NCBI RefSeq assembly: GCF_006538365.1
Contig: NZ_BJKN01000001.1
Location: 551,639-615,638, forward strand
From: Moorella sp. E308F
GTDB taxonomy: Bacteria > Bacillota > DSM-521 > Neomoorellales > Neomoorellaceae
Length of the DNA: 64,000 nt
Direction: 5' to 3'
Shown here: positions 1,731 to 13,547 of the stretch, one piece after another
Numbering within the stretch: position 1 is the first letter of the stretch
Layout of the letters: each line of letters starts with the position of its first letter
The notes under the pieces: generated by a model
The model's input: only the letters and a program-made list of their open reading frames with translations
The model's database searches: none
What the model was told of the DNA's origin: nothing
Translations under genes and position numbers: made by a program

Positions 1731-2027
1731 TTACAGAGTTTCGTCGTCTACGTAATAGGTGAAGCTGTCAAGCAAGTTGTAATCGTAATAGTATAAGTAT
1801 ACTCGCATCTCTTCAAGGCTTACGCCGACATCGTCGAAAACGCCGACGACGTCTTCGCAAATATCCAGGACATCATTTTCGATTGTTCTGCTGCTCAGAG
1901 CGTCCCAGGCGTCGCCGGCATCGCCCCCCACGGCTTCCAGGTCGATGGTCGCCATGTCGCTGCTCTCAGAATACCCAGCATAAGTTACCTCAATCTTGAT
2001 ATCATCTATATAATACCGGGGTGACAT
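1731..2027 (-). pseudogene. C-terminal fragment of the acidic stalk protein
   Basis: The 98 codons match the last part of the 354-residue protein at 10571-11635: YAGYSESSDMATIDLEA here against YASYSESSEKATVYLEA there, ending in SFTYYVDDETL against YFTYYVDDETLE. The signal peptide, stalk domain, coiled coil and acidic middle are absent. The reading frame begins about 40 nt after the stop of the macB-like gene, and no good ribosome binding site precedes the ATG. Nucleotide similarity to the full copy is only moderate, so this is an old partial duplication or the 3' remnant of a deleted paralogue. It could still be translated as a small acidic protein, but nothing supports that. Confidence 0.6.
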
Positions 2028-2066: not shown

Positions 2067-3278
2067 CTACTCATACCGCAGGGCCTCGATAGGATTGGCC
2101 GTGGCGGCCCGGCGGGCCGGGTAGTAGCCGAAGAAGATTCCCACCAGGGCCGAGAAACCTATGGCCAGCAGGATGGAGGCCGGGGCGATGACTGCCGGCC
2201 AGCCGGCTAGAACGGCTACCAGGCGGCTGCCGGTGAACCCGGCCAGCATCCCGATTATGCCGCCGGCCAGGCTCAATACCAGGGCTTCGATGAGAAACTG
2301 GCTTAATATTGCCCCGCCGGTGGCTCCTACGGCCATGCGGATGCCGATCTCCCGGGTGCGTTCGGTGACGGATACCAGCATGATGTTCATGATGCCGATG
2401 CCCCCTACTAATAGGGATACCGCCGCTACTCCTGCTAATAGCAATGTCATGGTCTTGGTGGTTTCTTCTACGGTTTCCATGATGGCTGTCATGTTCTGGA
2501 TGTTGAAGTCGTCTTCTTCCTGGTCGCTGAGGCGGTGCCGCTGGCGTAATAGGGCGGTTATTTCTTCTTCGACCGTGGCAAGGCTTCCGGCGTCCCGCGC
2601 CTGGACGTTGATGACCTGGACGTTACGGCTGCCGCTGAAGCGCTGCTGGGCTGTTGTTATGGGGATGTAAATCATGTCGTCCTGGTCCTGGCCCCCCATG
2701 CCGCCGCCCTGGGCTTTGAGGACGCCGACGACGGTGAACCTTAAATTGTTCAGGGTGATTGTCCGGCCGACGGCGCTGCTGCCGTCGGGGAAGAGGTTGG
2801 CTTCTACCGTTGGCCCGAGCACGGCTACTTGTCTGGCTTCTTCGCTGTCTTCTTCGGTGAAAAAGGACCCCACGGCTGTCTCCAGGTTTCTTATCTTCGG
2901 GTATGAGGCGCTGGTGCCTTTGACCGTGGTGCTCCAGGTCTGGCTGCCGGCGGCGGCTGTTACCTCCTGGTTGACTTCCGGGGCAACGTTCTGTACCAGA
3001 GGCAGCCCGGCTATGGCCTGCGCGTCTTTTAAGGTGAGGCTTTCGATGCCGGCGGCGCCGCGCACCGGCCCGAACCCTGTCCCGGGACGTATCATCAGGA
3101 TGTTTGACCCCATGCGGGCTATCCTTTCCGTTACCTGGGCTGTTGCTCCCTGGCCGATGCTGACCATGACGATTACTGCGGCGACGCCGATGATGATGCC
3201 CAGCATGGTGAGTAGCGAGCGCATTTTGTTGGCCATGAGTCCCCGCCAGGCTACGGCCAGCGCTGCTCTGAAGTTCAT
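2067..3278 (-). CDS. MacB-like ABC transporter permease
   Basis: 403 residues with the MacB/FtsX architecture. There is one membrane helix at about residues 20-42, a large extracytoplasmic MacB core domain (about 50-275), and three C-terminal helices starting near TLLLAGVAAVSLLVGGIGIM. The conserved line TRTREIGIRMAVGA lies between helices 2 and 3. It overlaps the ATPase gene by 4 nt (ATGA), and the adaptor lies just upstream of that, so the three form one operon. Family members act as mechanotransmission exporters of peptides, lipids or drugs; the substrate here cannot be read from the sequence. No outer-membrane partner is adjacent. Confidence 0.88.
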   Translation of the reverse strand: MNFRAALAVAWRGLMANKMRSLLTMLGIIIGVAAVIVMVSIGQGATAQVTERIARMGSNILMIRPGTGFGPVRGAAGIESLTLKDAQAIAGLPLVQNVAPEVNQEVTAAAGSQTWSTTVKGTSASYPKIRNLETAVGSFFTEEDSEEARQVAVLGPTVEANLFPDGSSAVGRTITLNNLRFTVVGVLKAQGGGMGGQDQDDMIYIPITTAQQRFSGSRNVQVINVQARDAGSLATVEEEITALLRQRHRLSDQEEDDFNIQNMTAIMETVEETTKTMTLLLAGVAAVSLLVGGIGIMNIMLVSVTERTREIGIRMAVGATGGAILSQFLIEALVLSLAGGIIGMLAGFTGSRLVAVLAGWPAVIAPASILLAIGFSALVGIFFGYYPARRAATANPIEALRYE

Positions 3279-4024
3279 GCTTTTTCCTCCCCTGCCGGTT
3301 GCGCTGCCAGCTCTTGTTCTGCCTGCCGCGGTTGTTGTATGTCTTCGTCGGCGACGATCTGGCCGTCGCGTACTCGTACCAGCCGCCGGCAGTAGGCTGC
3401 GATGTCGGGTTCGTGGGTGACGATGACTACCGTCAGTCCTTTTTCGCGGTGCAGCTCCTGGAAGATGGCCATCACCTCGACGCTGGTGCGGGTGTCCAGG
3501 GCGCCGGTGGGTTCGTCGGCTAAGATGATGGCCGGGTCGTTGACCAGGGCGCGGGCGATGGCTACCCGCTGCTGCTGCCCGCCGGACAGCTGGTTGGGCC
3601 GGTGGTGTTCCCGGCCTTCTAATCCTACCTGCTGCAGGGCGGCTATGGCCCGGGCCTGCATTTCCCGCCGGGGCACGCCAGCGTAGATCAGGGGCAGAGC
3701 GACGTTTTCCCAGGCCGTCAGGTTGCCGATGAGGTTGAAGCTCTGGAAGACAAACCCAATCTGCCGGTTGCGGATGTAAGCCAGCTGGTCGGGGGTGAGC
3801 CCGGTGACGTCCTGGCCGTGCAGCAGGTAGCGGCCGCCGGTGGGCTTATCCAGGCAGCCCAGGATGTGCATCAGGGTGGATTTGCCTGACCCGGAGGCGC
3901 CCATGATGGCTACCATTTCCCCGGCGTTGACTTCTAATTCGATGCCTCGCAGGGCATGCACCCGGTTCTCGCCGCTGGCGTAGACTCGGGTCACTCCCTG
4001 CAGTTGGATTACTGGTGTGGTCAC
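3275..4024 (-). CDS. MacB-type ABC transporter ATPase
   Basis: 249 residues, a standard MacB/LolD-family nucleotide-binding subunit. Visible motifs are Walker A GASGSGKST (about 41-49), Q-loop VFQSFN, signature LSGGQQQR, Walker B IILADEP and the H-loop in VIVTHEP. It would energise the permease encoded directly downstream, with which it overlaps by 4 nt. The adaptor gene ends 5 nt upstream. The tail after about residue 225 is rich in Q, E and A and not conserved. Confidence 0.92.
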   Translation of the reverse strand: MTTPVIQLQGVTRVYASGENRVHALRGIELEVNAGEMVAIMGASGSGKSTLMHILGCLDKPTGGRYLLHGQDVTGLTPDQLAYIRNRQIGFVFQSFNLIGNLTAWENVALPLIYAGVPRREMQARAIAALQQVGLEGREHHRPNQLSGGQQQRVAIARALVNDPAIILADEPTGALDTRTSVEVMAIFQELHREKGLTVVIVTHEPDIAAYCRRLVRVRDGQIVADEDIQQPRQAEQELAAQPAGEEKA

Positions 4025-4029
4025 TTCTC

Positions 4030-5541
4030 CTACCTCCCCGGGGGGCCGCCTGCCGGTGGCCCCATCATGGGCCCGGGGGTCATAGGCGTCCTTGATTGGT
4101 TGCTGGAGGACGATCTGGTGGAAGTGCTTGCCGCTGTCCCTTGGGAAGAGCTGATGCCGATGATGACCGCTTCTCCTGCCTGCAGCCCGCTTACTACTTC
4201 TACGTTGCTCTCGTCGCTTATGCCGGTAACGACCTGCCGGGGTACCGGCTGGCCGTTTTCTAATACCAGCACTACGCCCCGGCCGGTGGCTTCTCCAGAG
4301 CTTGCCTCGGTTTCGCTCATACCTGCATTTGATCTAAAGTTTTTGTTTTCCTGCCCGCCATCCTGGCTGGGAGCACTGCCGGAGCCGCCGGCCGCTGTAC
4401 CATTAGCCCGGCTGCCGTTTTTACTGCTGGCCTGGTAGCTGCTGGCAAAGGTCAGGGCCGCTTTGGGTATGGTTAATACGTTGTCTTTACTGGCGATAAT
4501 AAAATCGACGCTGGCCGTCATGCCGGCCTTTAGGGACTGGCTTTTGTCTTTGTCTACGGATATGACTACCTCGTAGAGCTGGACGTTGGAGACGGTCTCG
4601 GCCTTCGGGGCGATCCAGGCTACTTTCCCGGTCAATTCTTCTCCGGGCAGGGCGTTGACGGTGAAGGTTACTTCCTGCCCGACCTTTACTTCGTTGATGT
4701 CGGCTTCGTTTACCTGGGCCCGTACCTGCAGTTCTTCCGTGATCAGGGTGATGAAGCTGGTGTCTTCGCTGTCCGTGCTGCTGCCGACGCGGTATCCTAC
4801 TTCGCCGTTGACGGCGCTGATGATGCCGTCCCACGGGGCGCACAGCCGGGCGCTGTCCAGGTCGTCCCGGGCCAGTTCTACCTGCACCCGCGCCGCTTCT
4901 ACTTCTGCCCGCGCCGCGGCGATTTCTTCCGGCCTGCTGCCGTTTTTCAGGTCTTCCAGGGCGGCTTCGGCTTGGCGTACCGTGGCGGCTGCGGTATCGC
5001 GTTCGCTGATGGCGCTGTCTAGCTCAGCTTTTGATAGCGCCCCGGCGTCGTATAGCGCCTGGCTGCGTTCTGCCGCGGCTGCGGCGTTGTTGTATGCTAT
5101 CCGGGCGGTCTCCAGATTGGCTTCGGCCTGGGCGATCTCTGCGGCCGTGGCGCCGGCTTCCAGCTTCTGCAGGTTGGCCAGGGCGCTGTTGTAGCTTGCC
5201 TGTGCCTGGGCCAGCTGCGCTTCCAGTTCGGTGGTGTCCTGGAGGGCCAGCACCTGCCCGGCTTTGACCGCGTCCCCGGGCTTGACGTAAATGGCTTTGA
5301 TGAGGCCGCTGTTCTTAAAACCCAGGTTTACGCTCTTTACCGGCTCGACGGTGCCGGTGGCGTTGATGGTGCTCTTGATGCTACCTTGAACTGCGGGCAT
5401 GGTTATGTAGGTGACCTCTGCCCGGCGCCCGTGCTGCCACCACAGAAAGGTACCGCCCAGAAGTATAAATATACAAACCCCCAGCACCAACTTGAGCTTT
5501 TTGGGCCGGGGAGGCGTGACTGGGACGGTTGCTGCTGTCAT
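4030..5541 (-). CDS. MacA/HlyD-type adaptor subunit of the ABC exporter
   Basis: 503 residues from the ATG at 5541. That start is preferred over an upstream ATG at 5574 because AGAGGAAG lies 6 nt before it. Domain order: short cytoplasmic N-terminus, one membrane anchor (KLKLVLGVCIFILLGGTFLWW, about 15-36), biotinyl-lipoyl-like half motif, a long Ala/Glu/Gln coiled-coil hairpin (about 95-220), second lipoyl half, and beta-barrel domain. A low-complexity Ser/Gly/Asn insert lies near residues 360-420, and the C-terminal tail is Pro/Gly/Met-rich. It is the first gene of the macAB-like operon. The coiled coil would reach across the wall. Confidence 0.88.
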   Translation of the reverse strand: MTAATVPVTPPRPKKLKLVLGVCIFILLGGTFLWWQHGRRAEVTYITMPAVQGSIKSTINATGTVEPVKSVNLGFKNSGLIKAIYVKPGDAVKAGQVLALQDTTELEAQLAQAQASYNSALANLQKLEAGATAAEIAQAEANLETARIAYNNAAAAAERSQALYDAGALSKAELDSAISERDTAAATVRQAEAALEDLKNGSRPEEIAAARAEVEAARVQVELARDDLDSARLCAPWDGIISAVNGEVGYRVGSSTDSEDTSFITLITEELQVRAQVNEADINEVKVGQEVTFTVNALPGEELTGKVAWIAPKAETVSNVQLYEVVISVDKDKSQSLKAGMTASVDFIIASKDNVLTIPKAALTFASSYQASSKNGSRANGTAAGGSGSAPSQDGGQENKNFRSNAGMSETEASSGEATGRGVVLVLENGQPVPRQVVTGISDESNVEVVSGLQAGEAVIIGISSSQGTAASTSTRSSSSNQSRTPMTPGPMMGPPAGGPPGR

Positions 5542-5608
5542 TACAATCTTCCTCTCTTTTTTTGCCGCGTACAACGTATCTAAATTTTTATATGAAATTA
5601 CACCCAGT

Positions 5609-5644
5609 AAAAAGGGCTGCCAGACTTACATCTCTCCGGCAGCC
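5609..5644 (-). terminator. Rho-independent terminator downstream of the 5781 gene
   Basis: On the minus strand GGCTGCC, a 16-nt loop and GGCAGCC form a stem followed by CTTTTTAC. It lies about 135 nt past the stop of the gene at 5781-6428 and separates it from the macA-like gene. The stretch between, 5645-5780, shows no gene. Confidence 0.6.
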
Positions 5645-5780
5645 TCCTACCGCCGTCTTTCTCGAGCAAAAACACGCCCTGCCCGCCGTGTTCCGTCTAT
5701 AGCGAGCACATTTACACCCAAATTTTAGGCCGGCATCTTATTTATGCCTGGAGATTAGCCTTAAATCAAGTTCATCCAGG

Positions 5781-6428
5781 TTATCGCTGGAAAGAAGTTG
5801 GAGGCAACGGCGGCATCATTCCGGGAGCGCCGAAAGGACTCATCTTACTTAAATCCAACTGCTCAAAATGGGAAATTATTTGGGCGGCAGCTTCCCCGGA
5901 TAGCTCACCCCTGGCCACCTGCTCGTTTAGTTTTTGCCTTTTCCTGGCTATCAGCTTATCTTTCACTTGTTCCAGGGTAAAGCCTTTTTCCGCGGCTATG
6001 CTTTCGAGGGTCTCCCCGTTTTTCAGTTTATTAAAGAATTCACTGCTGTCAATTCCTAGGACAGCGGCCAGCTCCGCCAGGTTGCTGCCCCCATTTCTCC
6101 TGCCAAACCAGGGGTCCATTAATGGCCCAACGTTTAACCAGGTGCCGTTTTCAATCGCCTGCTCGATCCTGTCTGCCTCATCCTGCTTAATAAAACCCTG
6201 GGTTACTCCTTCGGCAAGAGTTTCTTTCCATGATTGTGCTATAGCCTCTTTCAACTCCGATGTATCAATGTCCAGATTAGATGCCAGGTTGGCAATAAAG
6301 AGCTTGCTAATTTCTTGCTGGTTCCAGCCTGACGAACTGGCGGCCATCGCTGCCCCGGCTCCCAGGGTCATCATCACTACCAGAGTTACGACTGGAGCAA
6401 TCCATTTCTTACTTTTGATTTTAAACAT
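5781..6428 (-). CDS. Exported DUF2680/YckD-like helical protein
   Basis: 215 residues from the ATG at 6428; GGGAGGG lies 7 nt before it, while the upstream TTG and GTG are too close to that site. A signal peptide (about 1-30) ends AAMAASSSG. The mature part has two copies of a helical module: a short helix with L..ID/SEL, then GxSLxxIAxxxGF, then a charged helix with a VxxGxLxxExAxxI line. The second module ends before a Pro/Met-rich tail. The module resembles the YckD/DUF2680 family and also the C-terminal half of the lipoprotein encoded divergently at 6784. An 11-bp repeat array covers its promoter. Function is unknown. Confidence 0.72.
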   Translation of the reverse strand: MFKIKSKKWIAPVVTLVVMMTLGAGAAMAASSSGWNQQEISKLFIANLASNLDIDTSELKEAIAQSWKETLAEGVTQGFIKQDEADRIEQAIENGTWLNVGPLMDPWFGRRNGGSNLAELAAVLGIDSSEFFNKLKNGETLESIAAEKGFTLEQVKDKLIARKRQKLNEQVARGELSGEAAAQIISHFEQLDLSKMSPFGAPGMMPPLPPTSFQR

Positions 6429-6471
6429 CACCAATCCCTCCCGTAAATTTTAACTTGCGGATTTTACTTTA

Positions 6472-6541
6472 ATTATATATTCTCCAAGCAATTTTTACCT
6501 GAATGCCGGCTGAAAACTCCTTTAAAATTCCCTTAAATCCA
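6472..6541 (-). promoter_or_regulatory. 11-bp direct-repeat array and -10 box before the 6428 gene
   Basis: Four head-to-tail 11-mers run from 6498 to 6541: CCTGAATGCCG, GCTGAAAACTC, CTTTAAAATTC, CCTTAAATCCA. Read on the minus strand their core is TTTWAG or TTCAG. A TATAAT on the minus strand lies at 6472-6477, so the array covers the -35 region. Eleven-base spacing places the cores on one face of the helix, the usual arrangement for an OmpR/PhoB-family response regulator. Confidence 0.55.
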
Positions 6542-6645
6542 ATTCTCTCCCAGGAAATTTATAGCAGCATCCGCATGCCTTCCAGGTATAATCGCTCCTT
6601 AAAGAAAATCCAATGTCCTGTACCAAACCAGGAAAGTTTAACCAA

Positions 6646-6702
6646 TTTTTAAGCCGTTTTTTAGCTAGATTTCAGTATGATTTCAGATTCCCCTGATATA
6701 AT
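6646..6702 (+). promoter_or_regulatory. 11-bp direct-repeat array and -10 box before the 6784 lipoprotein gene
   Basis: Four 11-mers in tandem at 6646-6689: TTTTTAAGCCG, TTTTTTAGCTA, GATTTCAGTAT, GATTTCAGATT. TATAAT follows at 6697-6702. The last core lies 10 nt before the -10, against 21 nt in the divergent promoter at 6472-6541: a shift of exactly one repeat. No good -35 box is present, as expected for an activated promoter. Confidence 0.58.
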
Positions 6703-6783
6703 GGGCCACGAAATTTGCAGCGTTTCTCAAGACAGCGCTGTAAATTTCACGAAAGATAGATATAGAAGGGAGGTGCACAGATT

Positions 6784-7341
6784 ATGACCAGAAAGCCGGG
6801 ACTGATCCTTTCCGCCATGCTGTTGGTGCTCGGAATGTCGTTACTTGCCGGTTGCGGCTCCAAGGGGACTGCCGTCCAGGGAACAGATAAACAACAGGGA
6901 AATCCGCCCGCCAGTACGACACAAAACACCGGCCAGAAAGCAGATGGAAGCCCGGCCACTACCGGTCCTTCCCAGCCGTTACCCCCTGATAAAAATTTGG
7001 CCCCTAGGACCAACGGTGAAAGCCGCCTGCAGAATATTGCCCTGGCATTAGACATGACGGTGGATGAAGTCCGCAGCTATATGCAGGCGGGCAAATCCCT
7101 GACCAGCCTCGTCCAGGAAAAAGGGTTTGACCAAGACCAGGTCGTCCAAAAGCTTCTGGAACTGGAAAAAGCCCGCCTGGAAGAGGATGTCCAGGGAGGG
7201 AGGATAAGCCAGGAGCAGGCCGACCAGATGCTGGCAGATATGAAAGCAAGAGGTCTGGCAGCATGGGAATGGGTGAGGCCGCAAGGGCCGGCGCCCCAGA
7301 AAGGACAACAATCACAGCCTGACGCCTCCAAATTACCTTAA
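6784..7341 (+). CDS. Lipoprotein with DUF2680-like C-terminal module
   Basis: 185 residues. GGGAGG lies about 9 nt before the ATG. The N-terminus is a lipoprotein signal with lipobox LLAGC (Cys at about 24), followed by a Gly/Ser/Thr/Pro/Gln-rich linker to about 75. The folded part (about 80-160) has the module LALDMTVDEVRSYMQ..KSLTSLVQEKGF, then a charged helix with VQGGRISQEQADQML, as in the divergent protein at 5781. The tail is Pro/Gln-rich. It would be anchored to the outer face of the cytoplasmic membrane. A repeat array lies upstream and a strong terminator 14 nt downstream, so it is a single-gene unit. Function is unknown. Confidence 0.78.
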   Translation: MTRKPGLILSAMLLVLGMSLLAGCGSKGTAVQGTDKQQGNPPASTTQNTGQKADGSPATTGPSQPLPPDKNLAPRTNGESRLQNIALALDMTVDEVRSYMQAGKSLTSLVQEKGFDQDQVVQKLLELEKARLEEDVQGGRISQEQADQMLADMKARGLAAWEWVRPQGPAPQKGQQSQPDASKLP

Positions 7342-7355
7342 GCAACAAACCATTA

Positions 7356-7394
7356 GGGCCTCGCACGGGAATACTCCGCCGAGGCCCTTATATT
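7356..7394 (+). terminator. Rho-independent terminator of the 6784 lipoprotein gene
   Basis: GGGCCTCG and CGAGGCCC pair around a 16-nt loop and are followed by TTATATTTT. Nothing else is evident between here and the fliD stop at 7491. Confidence 0.8.
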
Positions 7395-7490
7395 TTGCTT
7401 ATTATATTCTGCTTAATTGTGCTCAATTGAACTGTTGATTAATTAGGCGTTCTTGCACCGGTATCATGCATTAATTATTCAGATAGCCTG

Positions 7491-8930
7491 CTAGTTCCCC
7501 CATCCATCAATCAGCGAGGCCAGCCAATCTCCCTGGCTCTGCAAAGTCGCCAAAGCTTCCTCCATGGCCGCAAATTGCTCTCGGAGCTGCTCCTCCTTTA
7601 AGGTAAGCCGTTCTTCCATACGCTCGATCTGGTCGTCAAGGTCGTCCATGATTTTCTGTAGGGACTGCTCCCTGAAGGGAATTAGGCCGTCCCCGGAGCG
7701 TACGAGGGAAGTAATATATTCAGCCAGCCTGTCAACCAGCCCGGTACCGCCATCATTGGTAAAGACGGCCATAACTGCCGCCGGATCATCCTCCAAAGCA
7801 GCCGCAAGCGTTTCCGTATCCACGGTTATTTTGCCGCTGCTGTCGAATGTCAAAGTGCCACTGCCTGCTACAGCCCCGGTAGAAAGGCCGATACTCCAGG
7901 GCGTCTGATAGGATCCCGTTAAACCGGTAATTCTATCAGTCATCAATTGACGTAAATAACTCTGTATCCTTGCCAGCGTAGTATCACCCTGCAGATCGCC
8001 TTCATCCCCTAATGCGGTGCTGATAAAATCCATCACTGTATTGTATTGCTCCACAACAGCATTAACAGCGTCGATGGTAGTCTGGATGTCTTGACTTATT
8101 TCCAATCTCAGTGTTTCCGCCGGTTCAATGGCGCCATTGCCGTTGGTGTCTGTTACACCCAGGAGATTGAGAGTAACCCCCTGAATGACGTCGGTAACGG
8201 TATTGGTGGTTCGGGTTATAGTGAGACCGTCAACGGTAAATACGGCGTCCTGAGCCTCCTGGACAACGGCATCTGGTATAATCGTCCCACTGGTATCGGA
8301 AACCAGTTGCAGTCCCTGGAGAACGTTGTCAGGATCTTCAAAAGATATCTCGCCCTCTTCTCCGCTTGTCTTAGAAGTAAGTACAAGACGGTGGTCTATG
8401 ATACTTGCCGAAACAACATCCCCAGCTCCCGAATCGGTTTGCCCGTCCTCCGGAATGGCATTTATAAGATCCATGATATCTGAAAGACTGTCCGTAGCGT
8501 TTACCGTTATGCTCCTGGTTTCACCGTTTACTGTTATGCTGAAAGTACCTTCTAGACCTAAGGCAGCCCCATCATCCGCCGCTACTTGACTGACGCTGGC
8601 CATTCTATGCGCCTGGGCCAGCTGGATGATGCCTATCCGGTAAGTCCCGCTTGCCGTGCCGCTTTTCGCATTAGCCGTCAATGCATTGCTGTCACTTGAA
8701 TTTACTGTCATGCTGGTAAACGTAGAAGATAGTTTTAAATCAGTAAGCTTGCTCAACAGGGTACTTAAACGGGTGTACAAATCATTCCAGGCATTTTTCT
8801 TTTCGCTATATTGTTCCTTACGTTCCTCAAGACTTGTCAGACGGGTATTTTCAATTTCCATTAACTGCTCGATTATAGAATCTGTATCCAGCCCTGATAC
8901 CAGGCCGGAAATATAAATGCTCCCCGCCAT
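7491..8930 (-). CDS. fliD: Flagellar filament cap protein FliD (HAP2)
   Basis: 479 residues, normal length for FliD. The N-terminal FliD_N domain begins SIYISGLVSGLDTDSIIEQLM and continues into a coiled coil. The central variable domains follow, and the C-terminal FliD_C domain (about 240-475) ends in a long coiled coil with LQKIMDDLDDQIERMEERL. The protein caps the filament tip and promotes flagellin folding. GGGGAGG lies 7 nt before the ATG. A frameshifted flaG lies directly upstream, the usual neighbour, but no flagellin, fliS or other flagellar gene is present within the window. Whether flagella are assembled from loci elsewhere cannot be seen. Confidence 0.93.
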   Translation of the reverse strand: MAGSIYISGLVSGLDTDSIIEQLMEIENTRLTSLEERKEQYSEKKNAWNDLYTRLSTLLSKLTDLKLSSTFTSMTVNSSDSNALTANAKSGTASGTYRIGIIQLAQAHRMASVSQVAADDGAALGLEGTFSITVNGETRSITVNATDSLSDIMDLINAIPEDGQTDSGAGDVVSASIIDHRLVLTSKTSGEEGEISFEDPDNVLQGLQLVSDTSGTIIPDAVVQEAQDAVFTVDGLTITRTTNTVTDVIQGVTLNLLGVTDTNGNGAIEPAETLRLEISQDIQTTIDAVNAVVEQYNTVMDFISTALGDEGDLQGDTTLARIQSYLRQLMTDRITGLTGSYQTPWSIGLSTGAVAGSGTLTFDSSGKITVDTETLAAALEDDPAAVMAVFTNDGGTGLVDRLAEYITSLVRSGDGLIPFREQSLQKIMDDLDDQIERMEERLTLKEEQLREQFAAMEEALATLQSQGDWLASLIDGWGN

Positions 8931-9060
8931 TTATAAAACCTCCCCTATGGAAATTTGTTCTCCCACCGCCAGCGCCGGCGACCCTCACCCCTGCAGCAGT
9001 TCGGGCCATATTCTTATGCGTAAATCTGGTATCCGGCACGTCTCCCGGGGCAATTTCATA

Positions 9061-9446
9061 TCAACTCAACAAGGAGTCCACCATGTATTTCATCTGGCTG
9101 GTCACCTTCAGCACATTCTCCGGCAGGATACGGCTGATAATATTGCCCTCGTTGGCGTTGATCGCCAGTATAATTAAGGTATACTGGCGGTCTTCTTCGA
9201 TCGCAAAACCGTCTTTTTGTTCAGTGTTTTAAGTAATCCAGCAATTTCTAAAGCGTTACTTCCATCCCCAGAACCACTGCCGTCGGTTGCTGCTGCTACT
9301 TTGGTAACATCAGCTTGAATGTTAGAATTTACCTTTATAATATTTACGGCCGTAATTTCCGTTCCATCCTCAGCAGAATGCATCCCGCAGTCGGCGTATT
9401 TCTTGGCTGTACCTAAAAATAATTCCTTCTTCCTTCTTGTTACCAA
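9061..9446 (-). pseudogene. flaG: flaG with a single-base frameshift
   Basis: Two overlapping frames together give a FlaG-like protein. The first, from about 9446, runs through SNALEIAGLLKTLNKK and then leaves frame. The second, closed upstream by a stop, reads DGFAIEEDRQYTLIILAINA, then EGNIISRILPENVLKVTSQM, then KYMVDSLLS and stops at 9061. This matches the FlaG/YvyC C-terminal pattern (acidic strand, hydrophobic strand, EVIRxIPPExxL, helix, GLLxD). The frames join at an A5 run (T at 9214-9218 on the plus strand); one extra A would restore TLNKKDGFAI. Order flaG-fliD is the canonical one. The true start is unclear. A sequencing error is the main alternative. Confidence 0.62.
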
Positions 9447-9719
9447 ATTATAGCAACTGAAGCTGAAATTATCCTGAAAAACATCTTAATACTAGCTAAA
9501 AATTACTATTGTTTTCTTGATTTCTTTGGAATATATTAGGAGGACCCATCGCGCCCCCCAACTTTCCTAAATAAAAGACCCATCGCCGCTTATTTGTTCA
9601 CCAAAAATTGTTAACTGAGGCGAGTCTTGTAGTTTCACTTCTAGGTTAACGCAAATATTATATTAGCCTGGGATTTTACTATGTTTTGCCAACTCTTTCG
9701 GATGGTCTAGCCTCTATGA
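9447..9719. other. AT-rich intergenic stretch, no gene recognised
   Basis: Stop codons are frequent in all frames and no conserved protein fragment, promoter or hairpin stands out. It separates the flaG remnant from the hairpin-rich segment beginning near 9720. It is probably decayed flagellar or mobile-element sequence. Confidence 0.4.
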
Positions 9720-9868
9720 AGTTCTAGTTCATCGGGCCGTGGCTTTGCCTCCGGCTTCCTTCAGACTCCACCTCACGGTGGACACCCTTGCCTTTGGCTG
9801 GCAGGCTGGTGCTGCCTCGCCTGCATTGGACTTTCACCACCAAGTTAACGCCCATGTCGGGCGCACGC
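9720..9868. ncRNA. Candidate structured non-coding element beside the IS66 remnant
   Basis: A run of short hairpins is visible: CCACC/GGTGG with a 4-nt loop (9768-9781), GCAGGC/GCCTGC (9801-9824) and CGCCC/GGGCG with a 5-nt loop (9849-9863). Between them are the words CTTGCCTTTGGCT and GGACTTTCACCACC. From memory, closely similar word sets recur beside transposase genes in many genomes, but I cannot name the family or the transcribed strand. The only frame, 63 codons on the minus strand, looks non-coding. Confidence 0.35.
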
Positions 9869-9869
9869 A

Positions 9870-9901
9870 AAAAAAGATCGCATTGTAAATGCGATCTTTG
9901 T
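9870..9901 (-). terminator. Terminator-like perfect hairpin
   Basis: An 11-bp perfect stem AAAGATCGCAT / ATGCGATCTTT encloses a short loop. On the minus strand it is followed directly by a run of Ts, so it would end transcription in that direction. No minus-strand gene ends just upstream, so it may belong to the structured element at 9720-9868 or to a lost gene. Confidence 0.55.
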
Positions 9902-9990
9902 AAGATAAGCGTCAAACCCTACCCACCTGGCACCAAAACAAGATTTATAGGATAATCTCCCTCGAGAACACCAACGGAGGGAAGATTTTT

Positions 9991-10317
9991 ATGACCAAAG
10001 CCGAACTGCAAGAACTATGGGCAACCCGGATAGCCGAATACCAGGCCAGCGGGCAAAGTATTAAAGAATGGTTGGCCTCCCATGAAGGCATTAACCCCCG
10101 GCAGTTATGGTACTGGCTACGGAAGTATAAAAACCAGAACGGAGTTTCCTCGGGGAAATCAAATCGGTGGCTGCCAGTAGAAGTAAGCGAGCAGGCATCT
10201 ATAGAGCAAGGCAATACCTAGCTTGTTAAAGTGGGGCAGGCCGGCATCGAAGTAAGACCTGGCTTTGATCCGGCTTTGCTCGCCCAGGTGATCCGGGTCC
10301 TGGTATCGTTATGCTGA
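9991..10317 (+). pseudogene. tnpA: IS66-family TnpA with internal stop
   Basis: The frame begins MTKAELQELWATRIAEYQAS and contains SIKEWLASHEGINPRQLWYW, the helix-turn-helix-like accessory protein of IS66 elements. A TAG at codon 77 (10219-10221) interrupts it. The same frame continues after the TAG as LVKVGQAGIEVRPGFDPALL and ends at TGA 10317, giving about 108 codons, the normal length. GGAGGGAAGA lies just before the ATG. The stop and the loss of the rest of the element show this is a decaying copy. Confidence 0.78.
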
Positions 10318-10440
10318 ACGAATTTGGCATCGACCGGGTTTTCTCGCCTGCGGCGCCACCGATTTGCGCAAGTCCATTGACGGGCAGGCGGTACTGTTCA
10401 AGTAAGGGTTCGAGCTGGATCCCCTCCACCCCTTATTGAT
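10311..10440 (+). pseudogene. tnpB: IS66-family TnpB remnant
   Basis: The ATG overlaps the tnpA stop in ATGCTGA, as usual in IS66. It reads MLNEFGIDRVF, then shifts frame; the following frame gives ACGATDLRKSIDGQAVLFK, a stop, and then GFELDPLHPLL. These are the N-terminal hallmarks of IS66 TnpB. Only about 40 of roughly 115 codons remain, and the main transposase gene (tnpC) is absent. Confidence 0.7.
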
Positions 10441-10570
10441 GAAGATGATAAAGAAGGCTTGATCTATCTTCTTAGACTTCATCATATAAAATGAAAAACT
10501 AAGAAAGCAGGAGCTTTAACAAGCTAGAAGCAAATTATTGAGATAGGTGGGGATAATTTTACGTTTGCTT

Positions 10571-11635
10571 TCATTCCAGAGTTTCATCGTCTACGTAGTA
10601 GGTGAAGTAATCAAGCCTATTATCATCATAGTCATATAAGTATGTCCGCACCTCTTCCAGGCTGATGCCGGCGTCGTCAAAGATATCGACCACTTCCTCG
10701 CAAATATCCGTGACATCGTCTTCAATTGTGCTGCTGTTTAAATCATCCCAGGCGTCGGCTGCGTCGCTGTCCTCGGCTTCCAGGTAGACGGTCGCCTTTT
10801 CGCTGCTCTCGGAATAGCTGGCATAGGATACCGTAAACTCGATGTCGCCCACGTAATAGGCCTGCCCTTCCAGCTCGTCAATAGCCTCGTCGGCATCGCC
10901 GCTTTCCCGGTAATCTTCGTCCTCGTAATCGATTTCCAGGTCGTCGTCGCCGTCTTTATAGAATTCCACCAGGGTGTCGTCATCGACGCTGTTGAGGATT
11001 TCGCCGTACACTTCCGTATCCTCCGACAGCTCGTCCTGGATGTCCTCCACCAGCTCTTCCAGCCAGTCCTCGATATCGTCGTCGCTCAGGTCGGCCCACT
11101 CGTCTTCATATTCATCCAGGTCCACCCATACTTCCACCTCGACGCTATCTTCGTCGCCGTCAAGCTCGAGGTCGTCGAGATCGACATCGCCTATCGAGTC
11201 GTAATCGTCCAGGAGTTCGTCTTCCAGGTCGCCCAGATCGCTACTTTCCTCTTCTATGGCCGCCAGCTCCCGCTGTAATTGCGCCACTTGCTGCTTTAAG
11301 CTCTGGAGCTCCTGGTCTTTCTGGGTCAGCTGCAGCCTGAGGTTGATGACTTCCGGCGACGTCTTGCTGTTGATAACTACAGTGCTAGTATCACCCTGCC
11401 AGTCAACATTGCAGTTCAGGGCTTCGGCCACCACCCGCAGGGGCAAAAAGGTGATGCCGTTAAAAATGAAGGGCTCCTGGTCGGGTGAAAAAGTGATGAT
11501 GGACCCGTTGACATTGATCTGGACATTGTTGTAGTCGACGGTGAGGGCTTTCTTGCCTACGCTCGCCTCAGCCGTTCCCGCCGCCGTCATCAGCGCCAAG
11601 ACGAGAAATGTCGTCAGCAGTCCTTTTTTTAACAA
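10571..11635 (-). CDS. Exported stalk-domain protein with very acidic C-terminal region
   Basis: 354 residues from a TTG at 11635. GGAGGG lies 7 nt before it and the sequence MLKKGLLTTFLVLALMTAAG is a signal peptide; the upstream ATG at 11689 would bury that signal. Residues about 25-90 form a copper-amine-oxidase-N (stalk) domain with NGITFLPLRVVAEALNCNVD. A coiled coil follows (about 95-125, LQLTQKDQELQSLKQQVAQL). A long Asp/Glu-dominated section comes next (about 125-270), then a C-terminal domain ending YFTYYVDDETLE. A truncated relative of that last domain is at 1731-2027. The gene diverges from the sigma gene at 11876 and carries an 11-bp repeat array. Metal or surface-polymer binding is possible but not shown. 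Confidence 0.78.
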   Translation of the reverse strand: MLKKGLLTTFLVLALMTAAGTAEASVGKKALTVDYNNVQINVNGSIITFSPDQEPFIFNGITFLPLRVVAEALNCNVDWQGDTSTVVINSKTSPEVINLRLQLTQKDQELQSLKQQVAQLQRELAAIEEESSDLGDLEDELLDDYDSIGDVDLDDLELDGDEDSVEVEVWVDLDEYEDEWADLSDDDIEDWLEELVEDIQDELSEDTEVYGEILNSVDDDTLVEFYKDGDDDLEIDYEDEDYRESGDADEAIDELEGQAYYVGDIEFTVSYASYSESSEKATVYLEAEDSDAADAWDDLNSSTIEDDVTDICEEVVDIFDDAGISLEEVRTYLYDYDDNRLDYFTYYVDDETLE

Positions 11636-11687
11636 CTGCCATCCCTCCAATTTTTTAGTCGCAATGTTGTTTTCTGTATCTAAGCCC

Positions 11688-11746
11688 ATTATTCCTTCTA
11701 CCCGAGGAAAATCTTGGCTTAAAATTGGCTTAAAATAAGCTGAAAA
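11688..11746 (-). promoter_or_regulatory. 11-bp direct-repeat array before the 11635 stalk gene
   Basis: Two identical 11-mers TTGGCTTAAAA (11714-11724, 11725-11735) are followed by TAAGCTGAAAA (11736-11746). Read on the minus strand the cores are TTTTAAGC and TTTTCAGC, the same as in the arrays at 6498-6541 and 6646-6689. A weak -10, AATAAT on the minus strand, lies at 11688-11693. Confidence 0.55.
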
Positions 11747-11875: not shown

Positions 11876-12468
11876 TTGAACCTTGGGAGTAAAAAGGCGC
11901 CGGGCAAAAAACCGGTGCTGTTTCCTTTGAAGAACTGGTCCTGACCTATCAAGATAGAGTATATAATTTGAGCTACCAGCTGACGGGCAACCATACCGAC
12001 GCCCAGGACCTGGCCCAGGAGGTTTTTGTCCGGGCCTACATGGGGCTGGATAAGTTCCGGTACGAGGCCGACCCGGGCACCTGGCTGCACCGCATCACCG
12101 TAAATTTATTTTTAAACCTGCGCCGGAAAATAGCCCGCCACCCGGCGGTTTCCCTGGACGCCCCCCTGGATACGGGTGAGGGCGAGGTCACCAGGGAAGT
12201 GGCCGCTGCCGGGGGCGACCCCCAGGAACTGGTAGAGGACATGGAGCTGAGGGGCTTTGTCCGCAGCGCCTTAAGGCAGCTGCCGGCGGAGTACCAGGCG
12301 GTGCTGGTGCTGCGGGAACTGCAGGGTTACAGTTATGAGGAAATTGCGTCCCTGCTGGGCTGCCCGCCGGGGACGGTGAAATCGCGCCTCAACCGGGCGC
12401 GGCAGGCTATGAGAGAGAAAGTAACGCAGATGGCAGAGGAGAAGCCGCCTGAGCACAGGCAGCCTTGA
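11876..12468 (+). pseudogene. ECF sigma factor, copy 1, frameshifted near its start
   Basis: The TTG start with upstream AGGGGTG matches the start of copy 2 (25871). Near 11905-11915 one base is missing relative to copy 2, so the N-terminal frame runs into a stop while the sigma frame begins after its own upstream stop. From 11917 the protein is identical to copy 2: region 2 with DLAQEVFVRAYMGLDKF and region 4 with YSYEEIASLLGCPPGTVKSR. Internal initiation, for example at the TTG at 11968, would give 166 residues lacking the first helix of region 2. The anti-sigma gene starts 12 nt after the stop. The gene is either inactive, truncated, or affected by a sequencing error. Confidence 0.7.
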
Positions 12469-12905
12469 GGTGAGAGGTTATGCAGTGCCGTGAAGCGCGG
12501 GAGTTTTTCTCGCCCTACCTGGACGGGGAACTCGCCACAGAAGAAATGGAAGTTTTACAGCAGCACCTGGAAGGCTGCCCGGCCTGCCGGGAGGAACTGG
12601 CCCGCTGGCGAAAGCTTTCCCTGGCGCTGCAGGGGTTGAAGGCGCCGGTGGCGGCGCCGCCGGGGTTTGCTACGGCGGCCAACGCCAGGCTGGCGGAACG
12701 GCAAAGGGTCCGGCCCTGGCGAGGTATCCGGCGCTGGGCGGCTGCCGCTGCAGCCGTGGCTGTACTGGCCGCCGGCTCTATCGGCTACGCCGCCCGGGGA
12801 ATATGGCAGCACTTGCCTGCACCTGTAGCCAGTGTGCAGCACAGCGATGGCCGGCAGGTAGCTGTTGACAACCCCGTTCCGAACGCGGAGCCGCCGGCGT
12901 CAAAT
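11917..12905 (+). repeat. 989-bp block apparently identical to 25913-26901 (copy 1)
   Basis: It covers most of the sigma gene and the first 142 codons of the anti-sigma gene. By eye the two blocks match base for base at an offset of 13,996, whereas sequence on both sides is homologous but clearly diverged. Same orientation. Confidence 0.85.
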
Positions 12906-13547
12906 CTGCCGCCGGACAGCGGGCAAAGCCAGCCGGTAAAGCCGGACGGCCAGCAGCCGGGCAGTGGCAACGCGGCAGGCAGAAAGCCCTTGCCGGAGAC
13001 TTCACCTGGAAATGAGAGCGAGCGGCACGCAACGACACCGGACAGCGGTAAGCCGGGCCAGCAACCCACACGGCTGGCTGACAGCGAGCCATATACCGCC
13101 CGGACCTTTTTAAGCGCCGAGCGCCAGGCGACCAGTACAATGATAAAAATCACCGTAGCTGATATAACAGGGGCCAAAGGAAAGGCTTTAAGTTTAGCCA
13201 GCAGCAGCGGCGCCGCAATTCAGGTCATCGCTGACCAGGATAACGGCCAGGTGAAGCGGGTAATCTACAAGTTCACCGTGGCAGAAAGCCAGGCCGCTGC
13301 CCTCCTGGCTGGATTGAGCCAGTTGGGCCAGGTAATCTCCAAAAATACCACCACCCAGGACCTGACGCAGCAGTTCAGCGCCACCCTGAAGCAGTACCAG
13401 GCCAAGGTGGCCCAGGTTAATGCCGCTGCCGACCCGGAGGAGAGGGCAAAGCTCACTAAGGAAGCTAAAGCCCTGGAACAACAGCTCAGTACCTGGGAAG
13501 AGGAAACAAAACAGCGCACCATCATATTATGGCTGGAGACGAAATAA
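12480..13547 (+). CDS. Zinc-finger anti-sigma factor with DUF4349-like domain, copy 1
   Basis: 355 residues. The N-terminus is a ZAS-type finger: MQCREAREFFSPYLDGELA, then HLEGCPACREEL (HxxxCxxC). A cytoplasmic linker and one membrane helix (about 84-103, WAAAAAAVAVLAAGSIGYAA) follow. Next comes a Pro/Gly/Ser/Asn-rich extracytoplasmic linker and a C-terminal domain (about 200-355) with strands, QDLTQQFSATLKQYQAKVAQ and a coiled coil, resembling DUF4349. It would hold its sigma factor at the membrane and release it on an envelope signal. It starts 12 nt after the sigma gene; GAGGTGAGAG precedes the ATG. Up to residue 142 it is identical to copy 2, then it diverges. Confidence 0.83.
   Translation: MQCREAREFFSPYLDGELATEEMEVLQQHLEGCPACREELARWRKLSLALQGLKAPVAAPPGFATAANARLAERQRVRPWRGIRRWAAAAAAVAVLAAGSIGYAARGIWQHLPAPVASVQHSDGRQVAVDNPVPNAEPPASNLPPDSGQSQPVKPDGQQPGSGNAAGRKPLPETSPGNESERHATTPDSGKPGQQPTRLADSEPYTARTFLSAERQATSTMIKITVADITGAKGKALSLASSSGAAIQVIADQDNGQVKRVIYKFTVAESQAAALLAGLSQLGQVISKNTTTQDLTQQFSATLKQYQAKVAQVNAAADPEERAKLTKEAKALEQQLSTWEEETKQRTIILWLETK

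Follow-up and report, generated by a model that had tools for sequence, protein, structure and literature searches.

Phased 11-bp repeat arrays before envelope genes of Moorella sp. E308F and the OmpR-family regulator RR2 as their probable reader

Rows of short direct repeats in front of genes for exported proteins raise the question whether they form a common control code and, if so, which regulator reads it. Such rows occur in the stretch of DNA analysed here, 64,000 nucleotides of Moorella sp. E308F (contig NZ_BJKN01000001.1, positions 551,639 to 615,638 of the forward strand), which is called the window below and is numbered from its first letter. A preliminary description of this DNA had listed three arrays of 11-bp repeats before two genes of exported DUF2680-like proteins and one gene of an acidic exported protein, and had assigned them to a probable regulon of an OmpR/PhoB-family response regulator. 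The present analysis supports this assignment and places the regulator, termed RR2, outside the window, with six sites in the genome. Since the same phased row of repeats stands at four promoters of the window and at that of RR2 itself, the genes concerned very probably constitute, as judged from sequence, one small cell-envelope regulon.

Read by unit, the arrays consist of TTTMAG-like hexamers with an exact period of 11 bp. The window was scanned with the pattern TTTHAG-N5-TTTHAG-N5-TTTHAG, allowing up to three mismatches, and 100 dinucleotide shuffles served as null. Eleven three-unit matches were obtained against 0.56 expected from the shuffles, in none of which more than four were reached; the arrays before these genes are thus real. 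The three locations described before were recovered, with exact ends that had been off by a few bases, and the total had to be raised by a fourth array, A4:

A1, 6499..6537, minus strand: four units (starts 6537 TTTAAG, 6526 TTTAAA, 6515 TTTCAG, 6504 ATTCAG), upstream of an exported DUF2680-like gene.
A2, 6637..6686, plus strand: five units at the 11-bp period (starts 6637 TTTAAC, 6648 TTTAAG, 6659 TTTTAG, 6670 TTTCAG, 6681 TTTCAG).
A3, 11718..11745, minus strand: three good units (starts 11745 TTTCAG, 11734 TTTAAG, 11723 TTTAAG), then a degenerate one.
A4, 9463..9501, minus strand: four units (starts 9501, 9490, 9479, 9468), absent from the preliminary description.

Each array is followed by a putative -10 element:

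6472..6477, minus strand: TATAAT of A1, 21 bp (10 + 11) past the last good unit.
6697..6702, plus strand: TATAAT with TGn of A2, 10 bp past the last unit.
9447..9452, minus strand: TATAAT with TGn of A4, 10 bp past the last unit.
11688..11693, minus strand: AATAAT, candidate for A3, 24 bp past the last good unit and off phase.

With 10 bp between last unit and TATAAT at A2 and 21 bp at A1, the earlier claim that the two distances of this divergent pair differ by exactly one repeat proved right. The spacing of 10 bp (or 21 bp) holds for A1, A2 and A4 as well as for the promoters of RR2 and of a YkcB-like gene described below; A3 does not fit. At the -35 position the array promoters match TTGACA in 2.56 of six bases, which is not above the 2.52 of six found at random, as is the case for activator-dependent promoters.

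The genome (3.06 Mb) encodes five OmpR-type regulators and was searched both with the pattern and with a sequence-only model (R1) built from the 18 foreign arrays introduced below. Beyond the window, the pattern search located an array at C3:419962-420000, which lies 10 bp from a -10 GATAAT and 54 bp before the start of the following gene:

RR2, G000:C3:420055-420735: OmpR-family response regulator of 227 aa, outside the window, followed by the histidine kinase gene HK2.

RR2 possesses a receiver domain (PF00072, 112.6 bits) and a Trans_reg_C winged helix (PF00486, 88.4 bits). Behind HK2 an array of six units, with TATTAT 10 bp downstream, heads an operon of YkcB-, YkcC- and GtrA-like genes. 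In the R1 scan of the whole genome the six arrays ranked first, with the RR2 promoter at E 2e-9, YkcB at 2.3e-6, A2 at 3.2e-6 and A4 at 7.3e-5, and the next unrelated match at E 0.67. A further pattern match at C1:910647 was rejected, as it apparently lies within a coding stretch and is missing from the hits of the model. The preliminary description had suggested searching the genome with a matrix of the repeat and looking for an OmpR-family system whose own promoter bears the array; the former placed the arrays of the window at the top together with the promoters of RR2 and YkcB, and the latter was found in RR2/HK2 as well as in most RR2 orthologues.

Orthologues of RR2 with 66 to 94% identity occur in Moorella sulfitireducens, Desulforamulus putei, Paradesulfitobacterium, Desulfosporosinus, Ectobacillus, Brevibacillus, Cohnella and several Paenibacillus. 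From these genomes and one further RR2-bearing genome, and with nothing taken from the genome of the window, 18 arrays with 72 units were combined into a unit matrix (consensus WTTCAG). Applied to the 64 kb of the window, this foreign matrix gave 34.0 for A2, 33.9 for A4, 33.1 for A1 and 18.8 for A3, no other place reaching 12, and its maximum over 40 Markov surrogates was 17.3.

Among 54 scored promoters of RR2 orthologues, part of which had served for training while most had not, 32 presented a four-unit array and 43 an array of at least two units, and in 33 the -10 lay exactly 10 bp past the last unit; one locus (L105) was misread in this count and does carry an array. Other OmpR-family paralogues showed a four-unit array in none and a two-unit array in two of 26 cases. 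According to the model, arrays were present in all ten genomes with RR2 but in only three of 16 without it. G004, which has no intact RR2, retains an array upstream of YkcB, with pieces of RR2 and HK2 next to it; these remnants (locus L281; 93% and 86% identical) are, by their sequence, those of a recent regulator loss. In G009, likewise devoid of RR2, an array persists upstream of an A2-gene homologue that is interrupted by an in-frame stop, and G005, also without RR2, gave a single weak match. Homologues of the A1 protein in the RR2-less genomes G005, G009 and G010 are not preceded by RR2-type arrays, and neither is the orthologue of the acidic protein (68% identity) encoded in G002, another genome without RR2; the upstream region there still resembles that of the window, by eye, up to the array boundary. 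The preliminary description had named missing arrays before orthologues in related genomes as evidence against a regulon. Such absence was indeed encountered in Moorella genomes lacking RR2, where it is predicted from the loss of the regulator.

What is observed are the arrays with their phase and conservation, and the connection to RR2; from this we infer with high confidence that the arrays are binding sites of RR2, through which it would activate its own operon, the YkcB-YkcC-GtrA operon and envelope genes of the window by a class II mechanism. By analogy with its family, RR2 would in its phosphorylated form occupy the 11-bp repeats as head-to-tail dimers. The array sits where the -35 hexamer is missing and its last unit lies 10 bp before the -10 in most promoters, so that bound RR2 would recruit RNA polymerase, which corresponds to class II activation. 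Expected targets would be its own operon and, behind it, the glycosylation operon YkcB-YkcC-GtrA, and within the window the exported DUF2680-like protein, the DUF2680-like lipoprotein and the acidic exported protein, with an exporter perhaps co-controlled with the A1 gene. The genes of the window under or near the arrays are:

5781..6434, minus strand: A1 gene; exported, predicted all-helical protein of a DUF2680-like family.
6784..7341, plus strand: A2 gene; lipoprotein with lipobox LAGC and a DUF2680-like helical domain.
10571..11641, minus strand: A3 gene; exported protein with a copper amine oxidase N-terminal-like domain, a coiled coil and an acidic region.
9174..9446, minus strand: open frame that follows A4 and is probably what remains of a gene.
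2067..5574, minus strand: genes for HlyD, a LolD-type ATPase and a MacB-type permease, downstream of the A1 gene.

The label DUF2680-like, which goes back to the preliminary description, is a fair one: of 16 aligned family members, 15 match DUF2680 (all at E 0.05 or below, the best at 6.3e-10), although the A1 and A2 proteins themselves remain below the cut-off of PF10925 (13.8 and 14.0 bits vs 25). A fold search of the PDB with the model of the A1 protein (pLDDT 69.6, pTM 0.41) returned no match at E 0.001 or better. The A2 lipoprotein scores above the Pfam cut-off of Sigma70_r3 (33 vs 25.3 bits) despite its lipobox, and this match is probably a helical look-alike. A short frame at 1731-2027 (minus strand), where the MacB gene cluster ends, shares 66% identity with the C-terminal 95 residues of the acidic protein at 10571-11641 and represents a partial duplicate of it. 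On the other side of A3, an ECF-type sigma factor gene precedes an anti-sigma-like gene of the zf-HC2 type that also encodes a DUF4349 domain (11968-13547, plus strand); the listed sigma frame has a TTG start and a region 2 incomplete at the N-terminus. Close to A4 lie the remnant of a group II intron (9613-9782, minus strand; Rfam RF02001, E 6e-9) and a possibly transposase-related frame (9991-10221, plus strand). The frame at 9174..9446 has no match in Pfam or NCBIfam, and the original target gene of A4 may have been lost through rearrangement.

Several points weigh against RR2 control of the window genes. A3 has three good units only and its -10 is off phase, and in the genome-wide R1 scan A3 (E 0.31) and A1 (E 0.43) are weak when taken alone, A3 owing to its shortness and A1 probably owing to a phase shift of one unit. 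A4 probably drives nothing more than the gene remnant at 9174..9446. The congener with the closest RR2 (G003) is without an orthologue of the A1 gene, so that conservation within the genus does not extend to the window targets. Finally, it is possible that the HlyD-LolD-MacB exporter genes are read from A1, and genes of these three kinds are linked to RR2 or RR2-type arrays in other genomes; a terminator-like hairpin at about 5610-5650, between the A1 gene and the exporter genes, may nevertheless separate the exporter from A1.

Another explanation, which we consider very improbable, would place the DUF2680-like genes behind A1 and A2 under a paralogous OmpR regulator, either RR-d (C2:318356; system at L037 2240-2924) or RR-c (C2:157591; system at L036 2715-3407). 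Both adjoin an exported DUF2680-like gene, paralogous to those of the A1 and A2 proteins, which carries its own 11-bp array 10 bp before the -10, and the RR-d-type array is conserved in several relatives. In addition, and again to the disadvantage of RR2, a matrix of RR-d nearly equals that of RR2 on A2 (RR2 34.0 vs 32.3) and A3 (18.8 vs 17.3). However, the RR-d arrays start with TCTTA (consensus TCTTAT / TCTCAG) and reach only 8 to 15 with the RR2 matrix, RR2 is preferred by 8 to 9 bits at A1 and A4, and the RR2-trained genome scan recovered the arrays of the window but not those of RR-d or RR-c. Moreover, homologues of the A1 gene in genomes with RR-d and without RR2 lack RR2-type arrays. 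As A2 and A3 favour the RR2 matrix only slightly, cross-regulation between RR2 and RR-d is possible.

That the arrays are instead repressor sites, where bound RR2 would overlap the promoter and block RNA polymerase, we hold to be very improbable. They do overlap the -35 position, and ArcA and like regulators of the OmpR family often repress from similar repeats (PMC3798270), but these promoters combine a -10 with a -35 not above random, the spacing to the -10 is fixed over phyletically distant genomes, as for an activator touching polymerase, and YclJ, the likely counterpart in Bacillus subtilis, has been reported to activate ykcBC and yngABC (PMC7961091). A function-less origin from chance or low-complexity T-rich repeats is hardly credible, for although T runs inflate near matches and A3 (18.8) exceeds the null (17.3) by little, the observed number of matches was reached by no shuffle, the foreign-trained matrix selected these places of the window only, and genomes of different orders share the pattern together with its phase relative to the -10, so that chance was rejected by shuffle count and foreign matrix and stands contradicted for A1, A2 and A4.

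Returning to RR2 as the reader of the arrays, the question remains what kind of genes they precede in other genomes. RR2-type arrays were found before RR2 itself, YkcB (with six units here, and in several other genomes), GalE, a trypsin-PDZ protease (HtrA-like), proteins with a YceI domain and an MBOAT acyltransferase, furthermore before a HlyD gene (G319), lipoprotein-LolD genes (G352 and G218) and exported DUF2680-like proteins (Desulforamulus putei, L100; genome G053, L297). At locus L241 the operon reads LolD-MacB-RR2-HK2, and in Cohnella RR2 adjoins HlyD-LolD-MacB. The predicted target set is envelope-directed, and a role in envelope stress may be inferred from it. In this way several exported proteins without assigned function would be tied to a single regulator and a DNA code readable in many Bacillota, from Moorella to Paenibacillus, and the matrix is a portable one for mapping a widespread, little-studied envelope system; under the terms searched, no literature on two-component systems in Moorella turned up. 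From the regulon a single signal is further predicted for DUF2680-like proteins, MacB-type exporters and YkcB-YkcC-GtrA glycosylation.

The most interesting point is the recurring pairing of OmpR systems with array-controlled exported DUF2680-like proteins; homologues of the A1 protein elsewhere adjoin OmpR two-component systems, too. More speculatively, and with rather little confidence on our part, Moorella-type bacteria might maintain at least three parallel envelope circuits. In each, an OmpR two-component system would be paired with a dedicated exported DUF2680-like protein, and the 11-bp array controlling that protein would have a consensus specific to the circuit and a constant distance of 10 bp to the -10. 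The protein may then feed back on the kinase as CpxP does on CpxA, and the DUF2680-like genes of the window would be detached partners of RR2.

Among known systems, PhoB of Escherichia coli activates by a class II mechanism, and the pho box lies 10 bp before the -10, replacing the -35. A pho box consists of two 11-bp repeats (PMC3978041), and the sites of ArcA, from the same species, often comprise three to five (PMC3798270). The RR2 arrays share the 11-bp direct repeats with both and differ in the hexamer, and RR2 falls below the PhoB equivalog cut-off (NCBIfam TIGR02154, 207.8 vs 296.2 bits). PmrA (BasR) of Salmonella and Escherichia coli recognises a TTAAG-type half-site with 11-bp spacing and controls the arn lipid A operon; a likeness is seen in that YkcB and YkcC proteins are distantly ArnT/ArnC-like, yet RR2 stays far below the PmrA/BasR equivalog cut-off (NCBIfam NF007928, 151.7 vs 330 bits). 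The regulon of B. subtilis YrkP (YrkP/YrkQ) includes YkcB and YkcC (PMC10128005). By their targets, YrkP/YrkQ and HexR/HexK of Clostridioides difficile resemble RR2/HK2 as two-component systems whose small regulons consist of membrane and envelope genes, with the difference that HexRK controls hexSDF, which was not found among the RR2 targets.

The closest resemblance is to YclJK of B. subtilis, for which we know of no signal, and the LolD-MacB-RR-HK operon at L241 presumably mirrors the gene order yclHI-yclJK. YclJ activates ykcBC and yngABC, and a transmembrane glycosylation system YkcC-YngA-YkcB has been proposed for this species (PMC7961091; PMC5836110). An operon of the ykcB/ykcC type is likewise among the predicted RR2 targets. 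RR2 is therefore probably a YclJ-type regulator, a likeness drawn from shared targets and gene order; a plasmid collection yielded one RR2 orthologue, from Paenibacillus, but no protein named YclJ. The two differ in that yclJ is under ResD in B. subtilis while RR2 has an array of its own, and in that DUF2680-like proteins and the acidic exported protein are counted among the predicted targets of RR2. With the domains of the regulator, head-to-tail repeats of about 11 bp in the target promoters and an array that replaces the -35 in phase with the -10 (A3 excepted), the system is a further member of the already known OmpR/PhoB-type control by tandem repeats, and its regulator is now named.

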